A stretch of 64,000 bases of DNA from Cerioporus squamosus (taxonomy: Eukaryota; Basidiomycota; Agaricomycetes; Polyporales; Polyporaceae). Shown piece after piece: positions 52,101 to 64,000 of the stretch. A program made the translations under genes and the position numbers. How positions within the stretch are numbered: position 1 is the first letter of the stretch; each line of letters opens with the position of its first letter. The notes below the pieces were generated by a model that had not been told where the DNA came from, made no database searches, and saw only the letters and a list, made by a program, of their open reading frames with translations. The stretch is from positions 248,001-312,000 of the forward strand of contig JABYQS010000015.1 of assembly GCA_022592435.1 (NCBI GenBank), written 5' to 3'.

Positions 52101-54502
52101 GAGATGTTCGCATTTGCGACGCGTGACTGGCGTGAGCTCCGTGAGCACAACGTCGGCGAGGAGGTCCAGAGCTTCCCGCACAGTATCGAGAGGGCCATCC
52201 AGAGGCTGGGAGCTCTCCAGCGCGCCTTCAACGGATGCCGTCCACACAACCTGGACAGCGAGGACGACAAGCTGAGCAGGGTACTTCTCCAGCCAGCCTA
52301 TGAACTGATCCTGAGGCAAGGGAGAAACCGTCCCATAGAAGGACTGAAGCTCTGCTACAGCGTCGCAGAGAAGTTGTGCCAGAGACACCCGCATCTCCGC
52401 CTCGAGCTTGGTTAGCCAGTCGTTGATCTTGGGGTAGTCCTTGAAGAGAATAGGGTCCTTGAACCGGACTTCCTCGGCCTCTCGAGAGGCCATGCCTTCG
52501 ATCTGGGACAAGTCCTCGGACAGCATAATTGTCGAGATACCCGCAAACATCTTCTTCAGATGTTTCATGATACGCAAGATCTCCTTGCTGTTACCGATGA
52601 TCTCCAGCAGATCCTCGTCGCCGACGAAGTAGAACCGGGGGAAGGAGGAACGCTCCCGCTCAAGATACTCTCCGAGCGCCTTCTGGATCTTCGTCAGCAG
52701 ATCCGCCAGCCGCTCAAGAGACTTCTGGATGCCTTGGATGTTCATCACGTCAATGACGAAAGGCGACTTGTAGACCTTCTTCATGACCGCGAGGAACTCG
52801 GAGTTGATGTTCTGGAAGCGTGCCGACTCGACAGGGAGAAGGTGCTTGATGTCTGCGCTTCCGGAGAAGATACCTTCGAGGTAGACCCACCGCCGTTGCA
52901 CGTCGATCCAGACGTCTGGAAGATAACGTAAACCAAAGAGTCGTCGGCGACAGAGTCATCGACGTACCGAAAAGTACGTGTATGCGATTGAGTTTCTCCT
53001 CCCAAGCGCTTGCCTCTTCCTCGAAGACTATGGATGGCGTTGAGCACAAAGCGAAGAACAACATCATAATGGTACCCACCCTTGTAATACGGAGACAGCT
53101 TCATCTGCGTGAGCGAGTTCAAGTTCTCGCTGCACTTGTTGAATAGGTCGTCCCATCCCCTACAAAGAACCATGAGCGTCACGAGCAGTCGGGCCAGAGA
53201 CGCAGACATACCTGATCAAACGGCACTTGTTCTGGTAGTTCACCAGGTCGAGGGTATAATTCGTCCATGTCTCCTTGACTTGTCGGATGTACTCCTCAAG
53301 AGCCATCTGCCCACGAGTCAGTAAGATGAGCATATGCGAATTCGTGCACGACGTACCTCTCCTTGCGCCTGAATAATGACTTCCTTGATGAGGTTCTCGT
53401 TCTTCCGTAGGTCCATGTCGTAGACATGTCCGAGGGTCATCCTACGCTGGCGGTCGGTGGCGACACTCATAGGCAAAGCAGAGGAGACACTCACAATGGA
53501 AGACTGATCTGCGACGGCACCCTCAACACCTTGAACAGCTGCTTCCAATGCCTATCCTTCAACGCCTCCGACTTGAGCTCCGAGATGAGCGTGTTGGCCT
53601 TGAGGAGTCCACGCAATACGTCCTGCACGTACTCGAACGCGGCATACTGTCGCATGCGCGTGGGCATCTCCTTCGTCGACGACAGCAGAGCATCCAACTG
53701 TTGCCTGAGCTTCCTCGGCTGTACCGTTGCCCATGTCATCTCGCGCAGTTCGCCTATCTGGTTCCACACACCCGACAACGCCGTCCAGACGGCCTTCAGG
53801 TCACGAAGCTCCTCGAAGACGGGCTCTAACCGCGTGTGACGGATGAGTTCGAGGTCGAGGGCCTCCTTGGCTTTGCAGACGAGCTCGTAGTCTTCTTGTA
53901 CGCGCGTGAGCTTGCCCTCGAAGATGTTGATGGTATTAAGTGCCGTGTCGGCGCGCATGCTGCCCTGTACTGGCCGCGTTTGCTCCCATTCCTGGATGAT
54001 GTCGTTAATCTTGTTCTCTACGATCTTGTCCTCCGCGACAATCTTGAGTTGAAGTCCCGCTGCGACCGCATAACCCCATTCGCGTCTCATTCCCTCTGTG
54101 ACCAACGTACGAGCACGCACCTAGTTGTTCCTGGATTGAATCGTTCTTTCTCTTGAGGATCTCGTTGAACGCGCTCCACTCTCCCCTCAGCTGGTCACTA
54201 TATAGCCAGTCGTCCGGAAATTGGTATCGAAATCGTTCAAGGGTCTTCTCTCCGCTTGCGCAGAGCTCGATCATTGGACCCCATGTCTTCGTCTTGCGTT
54301 TAAGGTCTTGGACGAAGGTGATGAAGGTGACCGCCGCGGCGGTGGAAGAGTTGGAGGGTGCCAACAACTACGTGGAGTATAGTGCACAGGTCAACTACTG
54401 CAGTATGCGCGACTGTATGCACGAGCAAGATGTGGACATACCTCCATGTTGTTGGACACACTGGTTGGAGGGCAAGTTTGGGCACACGCGACGCGTCGCT
54501 AG
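43179..54502 (-). CDS. DYN1: Cytoplasmic dynein heavy chain, 5' end missing
   Basis: Minus-end microtubule motor. About 3500 residues are visible; the C terminus is complete (ends [16 protein letters not shown]). Order from the 5' side: late tail ([33 protein letters not shown]), linker, AAA1 with the Walker A split by an intron ([16 protein letters not shown], about 51,740-51,810) and Walker [19 protein letters not shown]2 has [12 protein letters not shown] (~50,800), AAA3 [19 protein letters not shown] (~49,650) and AAA4 GVSGSGK (~48,610), with [14 protein letters not shown]. The coiled-coil stalk and microtubule-binding domain lie at about 47,760-46,880. AAA5, AAA6 and the C-terminal domain follow. 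Family members are 4300-4700 residues, so roughly 1000 N-terminal residues are absent. The visible gene stops exactly at a transposon edge. In the last visible frame a TAG at 54,499-54,501 is in frame, so either an intron acceptor (CTAG) lies there or the gene is broken. Confidence 0.9.
54497..54502. repeat. Target-site duplication, left copy
   Basis: CGCTAG flanks transposon copy 1 on the left and recurs at 60420-60425 after its right end. The final AG of the right copy is shared with the first two bases of transposon copy 2. Because the end alignment is slightly ambiguous, 6 or 7 bp are both possible. Confidence 0.7.
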
Positions 54503-54533
54503 AGGCTCTTGACTTATAGGCGTAGCGGGCCCC
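54503..54533 (+). repeat. Left terminal inverted repeat, transposon copy 1
   Basis: 31 bp, matching the reverse complement of 60389-60419 at about 25 positions; the shared core includes CTTGA, TATAGG and GTAGCGGG. Confidence 0.85.
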
Positions 54534-54596
54534 CGAAAATTAATTAAATTAAATGAAATTAAAGAAATTAAATCGTAGGGGGAGGAGGAGAAGGAG

Positions 54597-54620
54597 GGCG
54601 CGACAGGTATTTGTCGCGCC
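54597..54620. repeat. Subterminal hairpin in transposon copy 1
   Basis: Perfect 9 bp stem GGCGCGACA / TGTCGCGCC with loop GGTATT, following a run of AATTAAA-type AT repeats. Placed just inside the left end. It may bind transposase or act as a transcription end signal for the minus-strand gene; this is inference. Confidence 0.7.
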
Positions 54621-54886
54621 ATTTGGTGGAACAAGATCCGCGAAGTGTGCCGTCGACGAGACCGTGCACTACAAGATGATAGAGTATGACGTACGCGTGT
54701 TCCAAGAACTAGAGCCGAGTATGTACTCGCTACCTCTGCAGCCCGCCCGGAGTCGGTTCACTTGAAGATGAGCCGTCTTCTCGACTGTGGTTAAGAGCCT
54801 GACACCATGACGTCCGTGCTACGGCTTAGCCTCGCTTCGGCTGCGTAGGCTAGATGCGGAGTTTGAGTGAGCGTAAAACAGCTGCA

Positions 54887-57800
54887 TCATGACAGACGTA
54901 CCTTGCAAGGTCGTGATAGGAAGATGCCTTCGCAATTGGGCTGCTTGCAGCGCTTGCATGTCCGAATCTTGCGGGTCCTGGCCGTTGGTCCAGAGCTATC
55001 GTGTGTGTGCGTAGCGTTGAGGTGTTGGGAGATGGTCATAGGCATCATCTCTGCGACGACTGGAGGAGCGAATGCCACCGTCTCCGGGCCCGGATGCTTG
55101 CGCTTTGCCGCTGTTCGACCCGTGCCAGCAGCATTTGATGGTCCCTCAAAGTATGGGAACTGCACGCTCGTCTGTTGCATGCTGATCTGGCCGAGGAGAA
55201 TCCCGACATGCCACGGATCCTCCGAGGTGCCGCCGCTTGATGATGGTGCCGTATACGGATCGTGATTGGCGTTTGAACGGTGCGAGCCATGTCGGAGTTC
55301 GTCGTTGAGCGTTGCGCGGGGATAGACAGAGATGGAAGGCATAGAGGAGACACAGGGGACAAGCAGGCGTCTGATTTGGTCGCAAGCAGCCTTGTACTGC
55401 TCAACGGAATTCTCTTCGTTGCGGTAGTCGAGCCAGATCTTGTAGTATGCCTTGAGATGTTCGGGAAGCTATGACACATTGATTAGCTTCACGCGAGCGA
55501 CGAAACACGGATGAGCGAACCTTGTAGAATATGTTCTTGCCATCACAGTAGGCCGACCATTCCTGAGCTACCGTTACCCAGTTTGGCTGCTTTGCGCCTG
55601 AGAAAGGGCCGTTCGGTCGCTTCGCAAGGACCCGGAAAAGAGAACGCTCTTCGGGCGTGTGAATGGGAAGGATGGCGACCAGTGTACCCTGTTGCGCAGC
55701 CAGGTAGACATGTCGGATCTTCTCTGACCGTGCGAAGTCCGAGCGGTATGGGAGCATCGCGAGCTTCGTCCGTGTGGTCTCAGGGAGAGGTAGTAGCCCA
55801 AAGACCTCGGTCGTAGGCTCGTAGTCGTTCCCATTCACCCAACAGTCGATGGCGCGGGGTGCTGACGTGGTCGATCGGGGTACAAACACAGCGGCGGTCT
55901 CGTCCACGAGTCTGGCTATGCGGTTCCTGAGCCAGACGTCGTACGAGCCCTGGTACGGCTTGCCAGTCCGGTTCAGGGTGCCGACCTGCCGGTGAATGTT
56001 CTATCAGCAAAGGCTCGTGGGATAAGTGAGGATAATGCCATACCGCGACATTATGACAGAATCGATAATCACGTATGAGATTCACAGCGAAGCGCGGTGA
56101 TGCATTGTAAGAGCCAAAACGTTTCGCAATATTCTGATGGATGCCGCCTTCAACGTTGTTTGTCCCTCGGATGCATCGGTATATGGTGAGACCATCGCGA
56201 TCCTTGCCGCTGACCATGTACAGCTGGATGCCCGGAGGATCGGAGTAGTAACCGAGGCGGATGTTCTCGAGGACGTTGGCAGCTTTCTCCCAAGAGGCGT
56301 TGTTGAAGAGTGGAAGGCCCGTCGTCGCATCCTTCAATGGTCCATACAAAACTAGGACATCGCGAACGCGCTCAAAGAGAACACTGGGCTTAGGAGCGAA
56401 ACGCCGGACGCGCCGCCACAGCCAGTCCGGATGAGACAGAAGCATCTGCGCCCACGAGATGTTGCGCTTCTGAAGCACAGCCTCGACCGCGCTCTTGTCG
56501 CCAGGATCCGGAAGCAAGATTGCGTCGCGGAGAGCTCGAGTAAAGGGCCGGCGGAACCCGTGATGGATAGGGATCTTGAACTGGTCCATCAAGTGCCAGA
56601 TGTCGCCCAAGACACGAGAGCGCACGAGCGGCTCCTGATAGTTTGCTGTAGAGTCCGCAAGTTGCTGAATGAGTACCTGCGCACGAGCGAGCGCTGCGGG
56701 ATCTGATTGTGCATCCGCTATGGACTCCTCGGTAGCTGGGTCGTACGCGATGTCGTTGTGCCAGTCGCATACATCGTCGTCAATAGCTGCACTAGGCTCT
56801 AACTCCACATCGCCGCTGTCCAAGGACGTCGGGTGCTGAGAGGTTGACGGTGTGGGTGGTGTGGCGTGAGGGGAGTCGACGGCAGCGGCAGCTTCTGCAA
56901 GGGGCAGTCCAGACGGCGAGAATGTGGAGCCAGAGAAGATGGAGAGGTTGGGGAGAGGGGAGTCCTGCATCGGTAGGTTGAGTTCTTCGCCCAGATGGTA
57001 CGGTGCGAGGTCTCGGGTGGCGCAGAGTAGTTCGAATGGGCATGCAGCGGAAATCTGTGTGATGGGAGTCTCCGTACGGGATGCTAGAAGCTCCTCGCGG
57101 ACCTTGTACCCCGACTGAATCACCCGCGTGATGTTCACGATGGTACGCGTCTTGGTGACGTTGACATTCTTGAACTTCGAAGGCCTGTCGAGTGCTATGA
57201 CGCCATATGCAACTACAGAGCGGCGGTCCCGCGAGAGAAGTTTCACCTGCGTGCCAGGAAGTGTAGAGGCGGTGATTGCAGTGGTAGGAAGAGGGCAGGA
57301 GATGACAGAGCTTCGTAGACAGCCCATGTAGCGTATACGTCGAGTGCGGCATACTTGACGTGCGCATCGGATAGCGCAGGCTCATCCCACCCATCGCTGA
57401 TCCGTACGGACTCATCCTTCGGAAGGTGGCGCCGCAACACGAGGGCAACAAGTTCGGCGAGCCCAGCGTTAGCTTGACTTGTAACGCCGCGGGACTGCGA
57501 CAACAATCCCAGCTCGACTGCACCGACAAAGGGGAGGGAATCGGCCTCCGAGGGGTCCGGAAGGCCGCAGTCATGGTAGAGACGCGTGAGGTCTGCTTTG
57601 ATGTGGACCCCGATCTTCTCGACACGGTTGCTTCGGAGGAATACGAGGAGAGTGGTCGGCAGATGTAGGTACCCCTCCTTCAAGAACTGAGACACCTGTA
57701 GGGATAAGTATGCATGAGACGACGTCGCCTAGTAGTACCGCAGTAAGTGACATACCGGGATCAGAAGCACTGACCGCTTGTACGTCAGTGAAATGAGTGC

Positions 57801-60310
57801 AACCCGCCCTTGAATGCCGTTGGCACGGTCAACAGACCACTCCATATCCATCGCGACCTGGATCCGAGAAGACTCCGTGTCTCCGGTAAGTTCCTCTATG
57901 ATACCGTTGATGCGATGATTGATCTGGTATGTCGAGCTCAGAATTGTGATGTCCCATTCAGACGGGACGACGAGCGGGGGCAGATCAGAGCTAGGGACTG
58001 GGGTAACGTCGCGGAGAAGGGACGGGAGAACGCGCTCGAGTTCGGGCTTATCGCCACGGACATTATCTGTGAAGACCAGTTGTATGTCGCTATGACCGTA
58101 CTTGCGAAGAGAGTGCGGTATTCTTGCAAGTAGAGGCATGAATTGGTCGTGTGCTTTCGTCGGGGTGAGCGTCATGGACCGGCACTCGCCATACTCATTC
58201 ACAACGGTGTGAAGAGCGCTGAACACCTCCTCGCCGTTGACCTTGATCAAATGCTTTGGGACCTATGACAGGCTATCAGTCTGAGGTGGAATACGAATGG
58301 TTCAGTTACGTACCTTGTGACTATGATCCATACAAATGATAGTCGCTGGAAGCATGGCCGAATACTGGTCCATCTCCTCCCCATACTTCTCAATAAGCGT
58401 GTTATAGACATCACGGAAGTAGGCCTGCGTTGGAACGAATCCCGCGTACCCACTCAAGTCGGCCCAGTCACTGAACTCGGTGTGTAGCGCGAGGAAGCTA
58501 GTGCTGACAAGGGGCAAGCGAACCTTGACCATTTCCAGGAACTGCGCCATCAGTCGTTCATATCGTCTGTAGTGAAACGAACGGATCGTCTTCACGAAGG
58601 GCGACGGCCCGAGACCGCGCTGGAACGATGAACGGAGAAGACCGGCGAGTCGATCTGTGAGGCCGTTACGATAGCTAAGCACGAACGTGAACTCCGCAGT
58701 GATGGATGGTGGAAGCACTGAGAGAAGGGATGGCGACCAGCTCGGGTAGACCTTCTTGCAATCTTCATGAGCGCAGTAGTAGCGGTATCCAATGATATAC
58801 ATATTGTCCTCGACATCGATGATACGGCGAGGAGCGCGGGGAAAGCTCAAGCAGCGGAGCATCACAAAATGACCGTCCTTGTTCTTCCGGTTTGAACCCT
58901 TGCATGCGGGACAGGGAATACGTCGCGGATGTATCAGGAGGTGCGGGAGCCAGACGAAGTATCGCGGCAAGTAGAAAAGTGCCGGGTGGAGTTGAGCGAT
59001 GTTTTGTGCCAAGAAGACCGGTGCTCGAGGTACAAAAAGAAACTGCCCGCTGTCGTAGCACGATGGCTTGCCGGACGGGTTGCGGGCCATCTCGCATCGT
59101 AACCTCTCGCAGACATTGCTGTAGTCTGCCGAGAGCCACAAGGGGAGTGTCGGACGCAGGCGCGTCTTCCCAGTCTGCGTGTCTGTTGCTCCATCGCCAG
59201 ACGCACCCTCGCCAGCACCGGTGCCGCCGTCCTCGTCATCCTCGTCATCCTGAGGCTGACCGTCGGCACTGTCCTCTTCCCGAGCATCCCCACCATCCCA
59301 CTCTGCATCGTCACCCTCCCAATCGAACTCATAATTGCTGCCTATAACAGCCAGTCAGCGAAGGCAGCTCAGATGAAACAGAACGAGGTACGTACCTGTC
59401 GTAGTGTCAGCCTGCAGGCTTGTCCTCCACTTCGGGTCTGACAGTGTCGCTATCCGCACAATGTCGATGTCGTCAAGCGGACGACTCTTCAAAGACGATT
59501 GAGCTAAGGAAGAGACGTGAGCGAACAGCACGAGTAGACGTAGTTAGCGACATACATGGCCCTGACTCACTTGATGTCGGCTGCGAGGAATCACCGGGGG
59601 TTCGCACACCGTCTGAACCAGGTCGGCGTGCGCTGGCAGCATCCGGACCGGGTGAGGCTCGTGGTACTGAGCTGCGAGGAGGCTCGGAGGAACCTGTCAT
59701 GAGTATCGAGGGTTCACGGCTGCGTGTCGTGCTCCCTATGCATAAGCGTTGTCAATATATATTGCCAGCACACAGCCAGCGTGATGCCTCACCATCCACG
59801 ACAGAGCTTGCAGCCTCCCGCCGACCTTCACTGCCGGACGCGACATTCTCGAGCTCCCCATTCCCTGACTCCGCAACCGTGGTCGTTACTGGTGCACCAC
59901 GAGCTTCGCTTTGCTCCTGCGTCACAGCGGTCGGTCGTGCTTGACCTGCAGGTTGGAAATGAGCCGGTCACAGTCGAGTTGCGGCAGGGGCAAGTAGCAA
60001 TATACATACCTTGCGCCGTGAGCGATTTCTTGAAAGAGTTTGTGTTGGGTGTTGCGCATGCTGTTGCGTTCGCTGTCTTCCTAGGTCGTCCGACTGGGTT
60101 CCCCTTCGTGCCTGCGTCAGGTCTGTTCTTGGATCCCTTCGGGCGACCTCTAGGACGTTTCGGGGGCTTGGGATTGGACGTGTCGGTAGCGAAGCTCCCA
60201 GAAGACGCCTCCATGCGCGATGAGCCTAGCACTGGGGTCAGACGTGCTCTATATGGTGCAGAGGTGTTCCGAGAGGAAGACGTGTCAAAAGACTGCCCAA
60301 ATGCGTACAC
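54887..60310 (-). pseudogene. Transposase with inserted DEDDy exonuclease, copy 1 (frameshifted)
   Basis: A multi-exon gene starting at 60310 (MYAFGQSFDTSSSRN). Parts in order: two AT-hooks (KRPRGRPKGSKNRP, NPVGRPRKT), then Ser/Pro and acidic linkers (DDEDDEDGGTGAGEGASGD). A zinc-binding region follows (IPCPACKGSNRKNKDG, YYCAHEDCKKVYPSW). The first DDE acid is in IICMDHSHKVPKHLIKVNGE (~58,325) and the second in DIQLVFTDNVRGDKPE (~58,060). A WRN-like exonuclease is next: exo I VAMDMEWSVD (~57,845), exo II HIKADLTRLYHDCGL (~57,585), exo III VKYAALDVYATWAVYEAL (~57,330). The candidate third DDE acid is in RCIRGTNNVEGGIHQNIAKR (~56,140). The C terminus has a zinc knuckle (RTCKRCKQPNCEGIF) and a stop at 54887. 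A one-G deletion at 57293-57295 shifts the frame right after exo III, so this copy should make a protein without the terminal third. Introns are small with GT-AG ends. Confidence 0.85.
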
Positions 60311-60388
60311 AAAGGGATGACGTAGAGTGTTTACACGAGTTACTTGTGCCCCATAAGTAGTAAGTCATTTTCAAACTCAGTCACCTCA

Positions 60389-60419
60389 GGTCCCCGCTAC
60401 ACCTATAGTTCAAGTGCCT
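60389..60419 (-). repeat. Right terminal inverted repeat, transposon copy 1
   Basis: Reverse complement of the left end with about six mismatches over 31 bp. Followed at once by CGCTAG. Confidence 0.85.
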
Positions 60420-60423
60420 CGCT

Positions 60424-60454
60424 AGGCTCTTGACTTATAGGCGTAGCGGGCCCC
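60424..60454 (+). repeat. Left terminal inverted repeat, transposon copy 2
   Basis: Identical to 54503-54533. Its first two bases (AG) double as the end of the target duplication right of copy 1. Confidence 0.85.
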
Positions 60455-60517
60455 CGAAAATTAATTAAATTAAATGAAATTAAAGAAATTAAATCGTAGG
60501 GGGAGGAGGAGAAGGAG

Positions 60518-60541
60518 GGCGCGACAGGTATTTGTCGCGCC
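60518..60541. repeat. Subterminal hairpin in transposon copy 2
   Basis: Same 9 bp stem and GGTATT loop as in copy 1. Confidence 0.7.
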
Positions 60542-60807
60542 ATTTGGTGGAACAAGATCCGCGAAGTGTGCCGTCGACGAGACCGTGCACTACAAGATGA
60601 TAGAGTATGACGTACGCGTGTTCCAAGAACTAGAGCCGAGTATGTACTCGCTACCTCTGCAGCCCGCCCGGAGTCGGTTCACTTGAAGATGAGCCGTCTT
60701 CTCGACTGTGGTTAAGAGCCTGACACCATGACGTCCGTGCTACGGCTTAGCCTCGCTTCGGCTGCGTAGGCTAGATGCGGAGTTTGAGTGAGCGTAAAAC
60801 AGCTGCA

Positions 60808-63800
60808 TCATGACAGACGTACCTTGCAAGGTCGTGATAGGAAGATGCCTTCGCAATTGGGCTGCTTGCAGCGCTTGCATGTCCGAATCTTGCGGGTCCT
60901 GGCCGTTGGTCCAGAGCTATCGTGTGTGTGCGTAGCGTTGAGGTGTTGGGAGATGGTCATAGGCATCATCTCTGCGACGACTGGAGGAGCGAATGCCACC
61001 GTCTCCGGGCCCGGATGCTTGCGCTTTGCCGCTGTTCGACCCGTGCCAGCAGCATTTGATGGTCCCTCAAAGTATGGGAACTGCACGCTCGTCTGTTGCA
61101 TGCTGATCTGGCCGAGGAGAATCCCGACATGCCACGGATCCTCCGAGGTGCCGCCGCTTGATGATGGTGCCGTATACGGATCGTGATTGGCGTTTGAACG
61201 GTGCGAGCCATGTCGGAGTTCGTCGTTGAGCGTTGCGCGGGGATAGACAGAGATGGAAGGCATAGAGGAGACACAGGGGACAAGCAGGCGTCTGATTTGG
61301 TCGCAAGCAGCCTTGTACTGCTCAACGGAATTCTCTTCGTTGCGGTAGTCGAGCCAGATCTTGTAGTATGCCTTGAGATGTTCGGGAAGCTATGACACAT
61401 TGATTAGCTTCACGCGAGCGACGAAACACGGATGAGCGAACCTTGTAGAATATGTTCTTGCCATCACAGTAGGCCGACCATTCCTGAGCTACCGTTACCC
61501 AGTTTGGCTGCTTTGCGCCTGAGAAAGGGCCGTTCGGTCGCTTCGCAAGGACCCGGAAAAGAGAACGCTCTTCGGGCGTGTGAATGGGAAGGATGGCGAC
61601 CAGTGTACCCTGTTGCGCAGCCAGGTAGACATGTCGGATCTTCTCTGACCGTGCGAAGTCCGAGCGGTATGGGAGCATCGCGAGCTTCGTCCGTGTGGTC
61701 TCAGGGAGAGGTAGTAGCCCAAAGACCTCGGTCGTAGGCTCGTAGTCGTTCCCATTCACCCAACAGTCGATGGCGCGGGGTGCTGACGTGGTCGATCGGG
61801 GTACAAACACAGCGGCGGTCTCGTCCACGAGTCTGGCTATGCGGTTCCTGAGCCAGACGTCGTACGAGCCCTGGTACGGCTTGCCAGTCCGGTTCAGGGT
61901 GCCGACCTGCCGGTGAATGTTCTATCAGCAAAGGCTCGTGGGATAAGTGAGGATAATGCCATACCGCGACATTATGACAGAATCGATAATCACGTATGAG
62001 ATTCACAGCGAAGCGCGGTGATGCATTGTAAGAGCCAAAACGTTTCGCAATATTCTGATGGATGCCGCCTTCAACGTTGTTTGTCCCTCGGATGCATCGG
62101 TATATGGTGAGACCATCGCGATCCTTGCCGCTGACCATGTACAGCTGGATGCCCGGAGGATCGGAGTAGTAACCGAGGCGGATGTTCTCGAGGACGTTGG
62201 CAGCTTTCTCCCAAGAGGCGTTGTTGAAGAGTGGAAGGCCCGTCGTCGCATCCTTCAATGGTCCATACAAAACTAGGACATCGCGAACGCGCTCAAAGAG
62301 AACACTGGGCTTAGGAGCGAAACGCCGGACGCGCCGCCACAGCCAGTCCGGATGAGACAGAAGCATCTGCGCCCACGAGATGTTGCGCTTCTGAAGCACA
62401 GCCTCGACCGCGCTCTTGTCGCCAGGATCCGGAAGCAAGATTGCGTCGCGGAGAGCTCGAGTAAAGGGCCGGCGGAACCCGTGATGGATAGGGATCTTGA
62501 ACTGGTCCATCAAGTGCCAGATGTCGCCCAAGACACGAGAGCGCACGAGCGGCTCCTGATAGTTTGCTGTAGAGTCCGCAAGTTGCTGAATGAGTACCTG
62601 CGCACGAGCGAGCGCTGCGGGATCTGATTGTGCATCCGCTATGGACTCCTCGGTAGCTGGGTCGTACGCGATGTCGTTGTGCCAGTCGCATACATCGTCG
62701 TCAATAGCTGCACTAGGCTCTAACTCCACATCGCCGCTGTCCAAGGACGTCGGGTGCTGAGAGGTTGACGGTGTGGGTGGTGTGGCGTGAGGGGAGTCGA
62801 CGGCAGCGGCAGCTTCTGCAAGGGGCAGTCCAGACGGCGAGAATGTGGAGCCAGAGAAGATGGAGAGGTTGGGGAGAGGGGAGTCCTGCATCGGTAGGTT
62901 GAGTTCTTCGCCCAGATGGTACGGTGCGAGGTCTCGGGTGGCGCAGAGTAGTTCGAATGGGCATGCAGCGGAAATCTGTGTGATGGGAGTCTCCGTACGG
63001 GATGCTAGAAGCTCCTCGCGGACCTTGTACCCCGACTGAATCACCCGCGTGATGTTCACGATGGTACGCGTCTTGGTGACGTTGACATTCTTGAACTTCG
63101 AAGGCCTGTCGAGTGCTATGACGCCATATGCAACTACAGAGCGGCGGTCCCGCGAGAGAAGTTTCACCTGCGTGCCAGGAAGTGTAGAGGCGGTGATTGC
63201 AGTGGTAGGAAGAGGGGCAGGAGATGACAGAGCTTCGTAGACAGCCCATGTAGCGTATACGTCGAGTGCGGCATACTTGACGTGCGCATCGGATAGCGCA
63301 GGCTCATCCCACCCATCGCTGATCCGTACGGACTCATCCTTCGGAAGGTGGCGCCGCAACACGAGGGCAACAAGTTCGGCGAGCCCAGCGTTAGCTTGAC
63401 TTGTAACGCCGCGGGACTGCGACAACAATCCCAGCTCGACTGCACCGACAAAGGGGAGGGAATCGGCCTCCGAGGGGTCCGGAAGGCCGCAGTCATGGTA
63501 GAGACGCGTGAGGTCTGCTTTGATGTGGACCCCGATCTTCTCGACACGGTTGCTTCGGAGGAATACGAGGAGAGTGGTCGGCAGATGTAGGTACCCCTCC
63601 TTCAAGAACTGAGACACCTGTAGGGATAAGTATGCATGAGACGACGTCGCCTAGTAGTACCGCAGTAAGTGACATACCGGGATCAGAAGCACTGACCGCT
63701 TGTACGTCAGTGAAATGAGTGCAACCCGCCCTTGAATGCCGTTGGCACGGTCAACAGACCACTCCATATCCATCGCGACCTGGATCCGAGAAGACTCCGT

Positions 63801-64000
63801 GTCTCCGGTAAGTTCCTCTATGATACCGTTGATGCGATGATTGATCTGGTATGTCGAGCTCAGAATTGTGATGTCCCATTCAGACGGGACGACGAGCGGG
63901 GGCAGATCAGAGCTAGGGACTGGGGTAACGTCGCGGAGAAGGGACGGGAGAACGCGCTCGAGTTCGGGCTTATCGCCACGGACATTATCTGTGAAGACCA
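60808..64000 (-). CDS. Transposase with inserted DEDDy exonuclease, copy 2 (5' end outside window)
   Basis: Same gene as in copy 1, with the N-terminal exons (AT-hooks, zinc region, first DDE acid) beyond the window edge. The visible part starts in the region just after the second DDE acid (TDN) and includes exo I (MDMEWSVD, ~63,767). A single 638-codon frame (61701-63617) then covers exo II, exo III and the VEGGIHQ segment without a break. It is intact where copy 1 is frameshifted because it has GGGG rather than GGG at 63214-63217 (reading SSPAPLPTT). Downstream exons lead through GKPYQGSYDVWLRNRIARLV and KNIFYK to LPEHLKAYYKIWLDYRNEEN and the C-terminal zinc knuckle. This copy is the candidate autonomous source. 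Confidence 0.85.

Follow-up and report, generated by a model that had tools for sequence, protein, structure and literature searches.

Transposons of the Dada superfamily encode a transposase with DDE and DxxH motifs, an N-terminal CCCC zinc finger and a C-terminal CCHC finger, and these transposases were noted to be similar to that of IS256 (Kojima & Jurka 2013, PMC3706591). The same paper reported a DEDDy exonuclease between the second D and the DxxH motif in Dada-1_LB and Dada-2_LB from Laccaria bicolor and in Dada-1_ES from Ectocarpus, and suggested that the exonuclease processes cleaved 3' ends. Here we analysed a stretch of 64,000 nt from Cerioporus squamosus (GCA_022592435.1, contig JABYQS010000015.1, positions 248,001-312,000 of the forward strand), referred to below as the window, which holds a putatively autonomous transposon with a gene of this layout. 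The exonuclease-inside-transposase layout was already published in 2013; what is new is the mobile element around it, with a rule for the junctions between its tandem copies. We hold it probable, if far from assured, that the element is a Dada-type DDE and DxxH transposon that carries a DEDDy exonuclease and uses an IS256-like copy-out step followed by insertion or recombination.

Copy-out of this kind has been described for bacteria. The ISCth4 transposase joins one end of the element to flanking DNA at a point 6-8 bp outside the other end, and integration was best at 6 bp; both ISCth4 and IS256 have 8-bp target duplications, and the spacers at their junctions measure 6-8 bp for ISCth4 and 5, 6, 7 and 19 bp for IS256 (PMC7780238). 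In these bacterial systems figure-eight junctions and circles were demonstrated, whereas for the window element we infer them from the assembly. A eukaryotic DDE element, KolobokP, also forms multimers, and its authors likened these multimers and the loss of flanks to IS3/IS256 copy-out (Kojima & Bao 2022, PMC9587614). As described there, KolobokP differs from the window element in its long terminal direct repeats, the TTAA duplications of Kolobok, a homing nuclease and the lack of a fixed 6-bp spacer rule.

The window element (unit 1; 54504..60418, minus strand, 5,915 bp, ends GGC...GCC) was delimited by an 8-bp duplication on its left, a 6-bp spacer on its right and ends common to its relatives. 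The target duplication TCGCTAGA lies at 54496..54503, left of the array to which unit 1 belongs, and its partner lies to the right of a copy on contig C197 (L010). The spacer, TCGCTA (60419..60424), is the first 6 bp of that duplication. The left terminal inverted repeat GGCTCTTGACTTATAGGCGTAGCGGG (54504..54529, plus strand) and the right one GGCACTTGAACTATAGGTGTAGCGGG (60393..60418, minus strand) were defined by comparing the two ends with each other and with the genome-wide family; they read GGC[A/T]CTTGA...TATAGG.GTAGCGGG and are imperfect, with 20 of 24 core positions in agreement when counted by eye. With up to three mismatches allowed, the end motif occurred 48 times in the genome; its reversed control gave 0 and 1 occurrences. 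The autonomous copies hold 11 of these occurrences, and the others are in non-autonomous elements. Unit 2 (60425..64000, minus strand) runs past the window, and the complete array on C57 consists of five head-to-tail units with a 5,921-bp period and sharp ends, up to C57:332095. A sixth copy, that on C197, is cut off by the contig end. Units 1-4 are near-identical. Unit 5 has diverged furthest, with 26 mismatches and 18 gap openings; its codon changes relative to the majority of units, 11 synonymous and 14 not, were uninformative on selection. Relatives of the transposase were found solely in the C57 array and on C197 in a six-frame search of the genome, and none were found when viral contigs were scanned with two segments of the protein. 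In the array, or in a circle, the AT-rich left end (window 60425-60500) would be located some 250 bp upstream of the start codon predicted at 60214, which may recall the promoters at the junctions of bacterial elements that form circles.

Tandem junctions were collected in a genome-wide search for an exact right end, N{0,30} and an exact left end. We detected 14 head-to-tail junctions (none in the reversed control), and the spacer was 6 bp long in all 14. These junctions represent nine distinct spacers at eight loci, and at 12 of the 14 the spacer is identical to the first 6 bp of the 8-bp duplication that borders the same array. The autonomous array has TCGCTA(GA) at four junctions, where the brackets enclose the last 2 bp of the local duplication; the others are TCATTG(AC), TCTCCG(TG), ATCATA(CT), CATACC(GT), CGCGGG(CC) three times, and GCACGA(AG). 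The two remaining spacers, TAGCAC (C604) and AAGTTC (C756), are of foreign origin, as would be expected if a circle or dimer derived from another donor. In the seven arrays of approximately 650-bp units all spacers are 6 bp, and six of these arrays (not C756) have at least one spacer taken from the local duplication. The array on C79 has two further 6-bp junctions after truncated units. That array (L074; G000:C79:392705-396034) contains two identical truncated 345-bp units, each followed by CGCGGG. Since nine distinct junction sequences have one length and come from the right flank wherever their origin is known, we attribute the spacer to a fixed enzymatic offset.

This uniformity bears on a more conventional explanation, in which an ordinary cut-and-paste Dada element inserts and the arrays arise later, through recombination by the host, slippage during replication or insertion next to an existing copy. 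Unequal crossing-over is able to alter the copy number of an existing array, and tandem arrays of miniature inverted-repeat transposable elements in coral were attributed to replication slippage (PMC2872659). However, if the 8-bp duplications had slipped or recombined with each other, spacers of 8 bp would be expected and not the 6 bp of every junction found, and a single length over nine different spacer sequences points instead to an enzymatic offset; we regard this explanation as distinctly unlikely. Its variant of adjacent insertion into an 8-bp target predicts an additional CC before the right duplication, which was seen in none of the seven arrays, and was rejected. It is far less probable still that the arrays are artefacts of an assembler cycling through identical units. 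The flanks of the autonomous insertion are split over two contigs, C57 and C197, and the single-base length differences between units resemble assembly noise, yet a false cycle would not create spacers of 6 bp that repeat a portion of the duplication at the site, nor would it account for the same spacer length in seven arrays of short units on other contigs, six of them with a locally derived spacer.

The non-autonomous elements are about 650 bp long, form two families that are approximately 70% alike, and are in some cases truncated. They occupy at least 26 sites; the flanks were read at 23 of these (16 single elements and 7 arrays), with C181, C436 and C135 left out. A perfect adjoining 8-bp duplication was present at 18 of the 23 sites, in 17 different sequences, among which there was no sign of a fixed target sequence. 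These sites comprise 13 single elements (C10, C623, C179, C124, C146, C48, C101, C173, two on C1, C93, C694 and C253) and five arrays (C17, C78, C604, C852 and C756). The insertions on C10 (G000:C10:81361-82013) and C604 (G000:C604:2916-4883) have the same flanks and represent one site, with one unit on C10 and three on C604; they are perhaps two haplotypes. On C10 the right duplication is preceded by 16 bp left over from a second right end. Small-RNA genes were sought in the same material. An Rfam scan of the window gave no gathering-level match; scans of L009, L010, L067 and L073 gave one weak match (E 0.75), situated about 2.9 kb away from the insertion on C197, and the non-autonomous pieces gave two (E 2.9 and 3.4), all of which were dismissed. 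No transfer RNA (tRNA) gene was detected in the window or in the flanks of the autonomous copies, and the flanks of the non-autonomous elements were too short to scan.

The 8-bp duplication at 18 of 23 sites and the flank-derived spacer of about 6 bp at 12 of 14 junctions are features that the window element and its relatives have in common with IS256 and ISCth4. By analogy with the figure-eight of IS256-type elements, the left terminus would be linked through its 3' end to flanking DNA 6 nt outside the right terminus, and this joining would yield a circle consisting of the element plus 6 bp. The circle could then insert elsewhere with an 8-bp duplication or, alternatively, recombine with the copy already in place, which would produce a head-to-tail array. 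The same circles and the same arrays would result if double-strand cuts retained the 6-nt flank at the right end only, the excised linear element were circularised by host end-joining, and the circles then recombined with resident copies. An asymmetric cut of this type fits spacers that come from the right flank only. Such a route requires lossless ligation at nine distinct junction sequences, whereas host end-joining is usually variable, and we consider it unlikely. Copy-out thus remains our preferred reading. The wider proposal is that IS256-like copy-out and paste-in is how Dada elements with an exonuclease, and the short elements related to them, multiply in a eukaryote, with the left end joined 6 nt beyond the right end, circles of the element plus 6 bp, 8-bp duplications and arrays formed in place, and that the 6-bp "target duplication" assigned to parts of the Dada superfamily is the circle spacer. 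We advance it tentatively, as a possibility that falls a little short of an even chance.

A number of observations weigh against the copy-out reading. The proposed circles are deduced from assembled junctions, and our junction search, with its requirement for exact ends, would miss junctions with degraded ends. The donor loci of the two foreign spacers were sought and not found. On C57, unit 5 is followed on its right by GCCCTCGG, which fails to match the left flank of the array; the match to that left flank is on C197, and therefore an assembly join or a rearrangement is involved. As assembled, one-base length differences number 1-3 in each of units 1-4 and 14 in unit 5, and may be assembly noise or decay. 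Five of the 23 sites depart from a perfect 8-bp duplication: the repeat on C554 is 9 bp long, that on C246 is 8 bp with one additional base at the left, the duplication on C79 agrees at 6 of 8 positions, C724 has a 6-bp repeat only, and C178, which has a differing right end, has no duplication. What the non-autonomous elements have in common with the window element is only about 60-90 bp at each end, and its transposase would presumably mobilise them. In IS256 either end may donate the spacer (PMC7780238), whereas here only the right flank does so where the origin is known. Dada elements with defined ends insert into specific small nuclear RNA or tRNA genes, and no small-RNA-gene target was seen here; Dada-U6 and Dada-U1 are described as having only short subterminal inverted repeats (PMC3706591), in contrast to the terminal inverted repeats of the window element. 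Finally, D549, D619 and E1238 of the predicted protein were placed as candidate catalytic acids by motif.

The transposase is encoded on the minus strand (60214-54887), in nine exons according to a GT-AG splice model built from the sequence without transcripts. The predicted protein has 1,626 aa when exon 7 is taken from unit 2. Exon 1 (60010..60214) encodes the AT-hook-like motifs KRPRGRPKGSK and GRPRK, and is followed by exons 2 (59793..59945), 3 (59571..59735) and 4 (59396..59503). Exon 5 (58314..59341) carries DUF6729, a Cys4 zinc-binding region (C354, C357, C400, C405) and the predicted first catalytic residue, D549 (MDHSHK; 58328-58326). Exon 6 (57756..58262) carries the putative second, D619 (FTDN; 58067-58065), and the start of the exonuclease with exo I (D692/E694). 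Exon 7 (56044..57695) contains exo II (D757), exo III (Y837/D841), the DxxH motif DIWH (D1087, H1090; about 56604-56593) and the candidate catalytic E1238 (NVEGG; 56151-56149). Exons 8 (55521..56000) and 9 (54887..55468) complete the gene, the latter encoding a C-terminal zinc knuckle C-X2-C-X4-C-X8-C (C1604-C1621). In unit 1, as assembled, a one-base difference from the five other copies breaks the frame of exon 7. In unit 2 this exon (61965..63617, minus strand) stays open over 551 codons, which take in exo II, exo III, DxxH and E, and separate transcripts are therefore not needed there. A 62-nt intron considered at 57246-57185 within exon 7 was dropped; it merely offset the broken frame of unit 1, and unit 2 reads through it.

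The original prediction of a DDE transposase with an exonuclease inside its catalytic core agreed with this model in the order of its named motifs, all on one minus-strand gene, and in the position of a WRN-type exonuclease between the second D and the E. The exonuclease matched Pfam DNA_pol_A_exo1 (E 1.4e-11) and aligned to the WRN exonuclease 2fbt (E 3e-7) with D692, E694, D757, Y837 and D841 matched, so that the DEDDy set of D-x-E in exo I, D in exo II and Y-x3-D in exo III is complete; the match is beyond chance. The DDE assignment was supported by motif, spacing and published architecture, on which it rests because no Pfam DDE model matched: the segment between the two D residues gave just DUF4895 at E 0.24, and the E segment gave nothing. 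Among the flanking parts that had been named, the zinc-binding region (which, with the sequence after it, matches DUF6729, PF20499, at E 1.4e-11) and the C-terminal knuckle were recovered, whereas the AT hooks fell below threshold (Pfam AT_hook 0.081). The prediction had described similar fungal proteins as known only as uncharacterised ones, but Laccaria Dada elements with the exonuclease are published, and its proposal that the exonuclease processes ends had likewise been made for them (PMC3706591). The gene is one unit of a five-unit array; the array, the terminal repeats and the non-autonomous family had been overlooked. Two single-sequence AlphaFold models, for which the window sequence was read through the introns, had a mean predicted local distance difference test score of 34.7 and 33.0 and were uninformative on the fold.

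Compared by motif and layout, the 5.9-kb element has in common with exonuclease-bearing Dada the DDE and DxxH motifs, the CCCC region, the presence of introns and the position of the exonuclease (PMC3706591). The distance between the first and second D is 70 aa here and 68 in Dada-U6_DR, and the CCCC region lies 144 aa before the first D compared with 135 in Dada; at the C terminus both have a zinc knuckle, here with a cysteine where the Dada CCHC finger has histidine. Duplications of 6-7 bp are given for the Dada superfamily (PMC3706591), against 8 bp at most sites here and 6 bp only at C724. Judged by its motifs, the protein appears to have the Dada architecture, and the element departs from Dada in three published features, namely duplication length, small-RNA target and absence of terminal inverted repeats; we refer to it as a putative Dada-type transposon and not as a confirmed Dada member.

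Following Kojima and Jurka, our guess is that the exonuclease would most likely trim or proofread 3' ends while strands are transferred or the second strand is repaired. Alternatively, it may be a passenger domain, inert or regulatory, or a host enzyme that became fused, without a role in transposition and with the DDE core doing the work. In Table 1 of the Dada paper the exonuclease is reported, among 36 entries, solely for the Laccaria and Ectocarpus elements (PMC3706591). Experimental tests of the exonuclease-in-transposase design were not found in the open-licence literature. We know of no experiment on the role of the exonuclease, and IS256-family elements are, to our knowledge, without such a domain. 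On the other side, all DEDDy residues are retained in a domain that is otherwise divergent, and the insertion point is reported to be identical in fungal and brown-algal elements (PMC3706591). We find the absence of a role in transposition doubtful, although somewhat less so than the other alternatives considered above.

Other PF01612 loci (C228/C723, C135, C137 and C429) were judged by eye to be separate exonuclease genes and were rejected as additional elements. Other genes with 3'-5' exonuclease domains form very similar pairs across contigs (L017/L018, L022/L027 and L023/L024), which suggests that both haplotypes are partly assembled. The neighbouring cytoplasmic dynein heavy chain gene looks split in the assembly. 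Its N-terminal part (DHC_N1, PF08385) ends on C102 (L073, G000:C102:26901-28400), and the next part, recognised by eye, lies in the window at about 53491-54447 (minus strand), with a possible ATG of its own approximately 57 bp from the left end of the transposon.

The relation of 8 to 6 bp may also apply to published Dada data. Zebrafish Dada-U1 was described with an apparent 8-bp target duplication, CTGCGAAT, and with tandem copies that have GCGAAT between them; a 6-bp duplication was inferred from this spacing and for two other reasons, and an apparent 8-bp duplication was noted for Dada-tIA as well (PMC3706591). By analogy with the present arrays, the Dada-U1 data could be read as an 8-bp duplication with a 6-bp spacer. 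If the junction rule reflects circles, a replicative route of DNA transposition described for bacteria also operates in eukaryotes, and this could explain the tandem Dada copies in fish and help to settle the duplication length of the Dada superfamily. The match of the zinc-binding region suggests that DUF6729, uncharacterised in Pfam, is part of an exonuclease-bearing Dada-type transposase, and the locus thereby gives this domain a likely function. The genome of C. squamosus offers a natural experiment on the exonuclease-in-transposase design: it contains a putatively autonomous element together with many short relatives that are near-identical, and the junctions follow a sharp rule of 8 and 6 bp.

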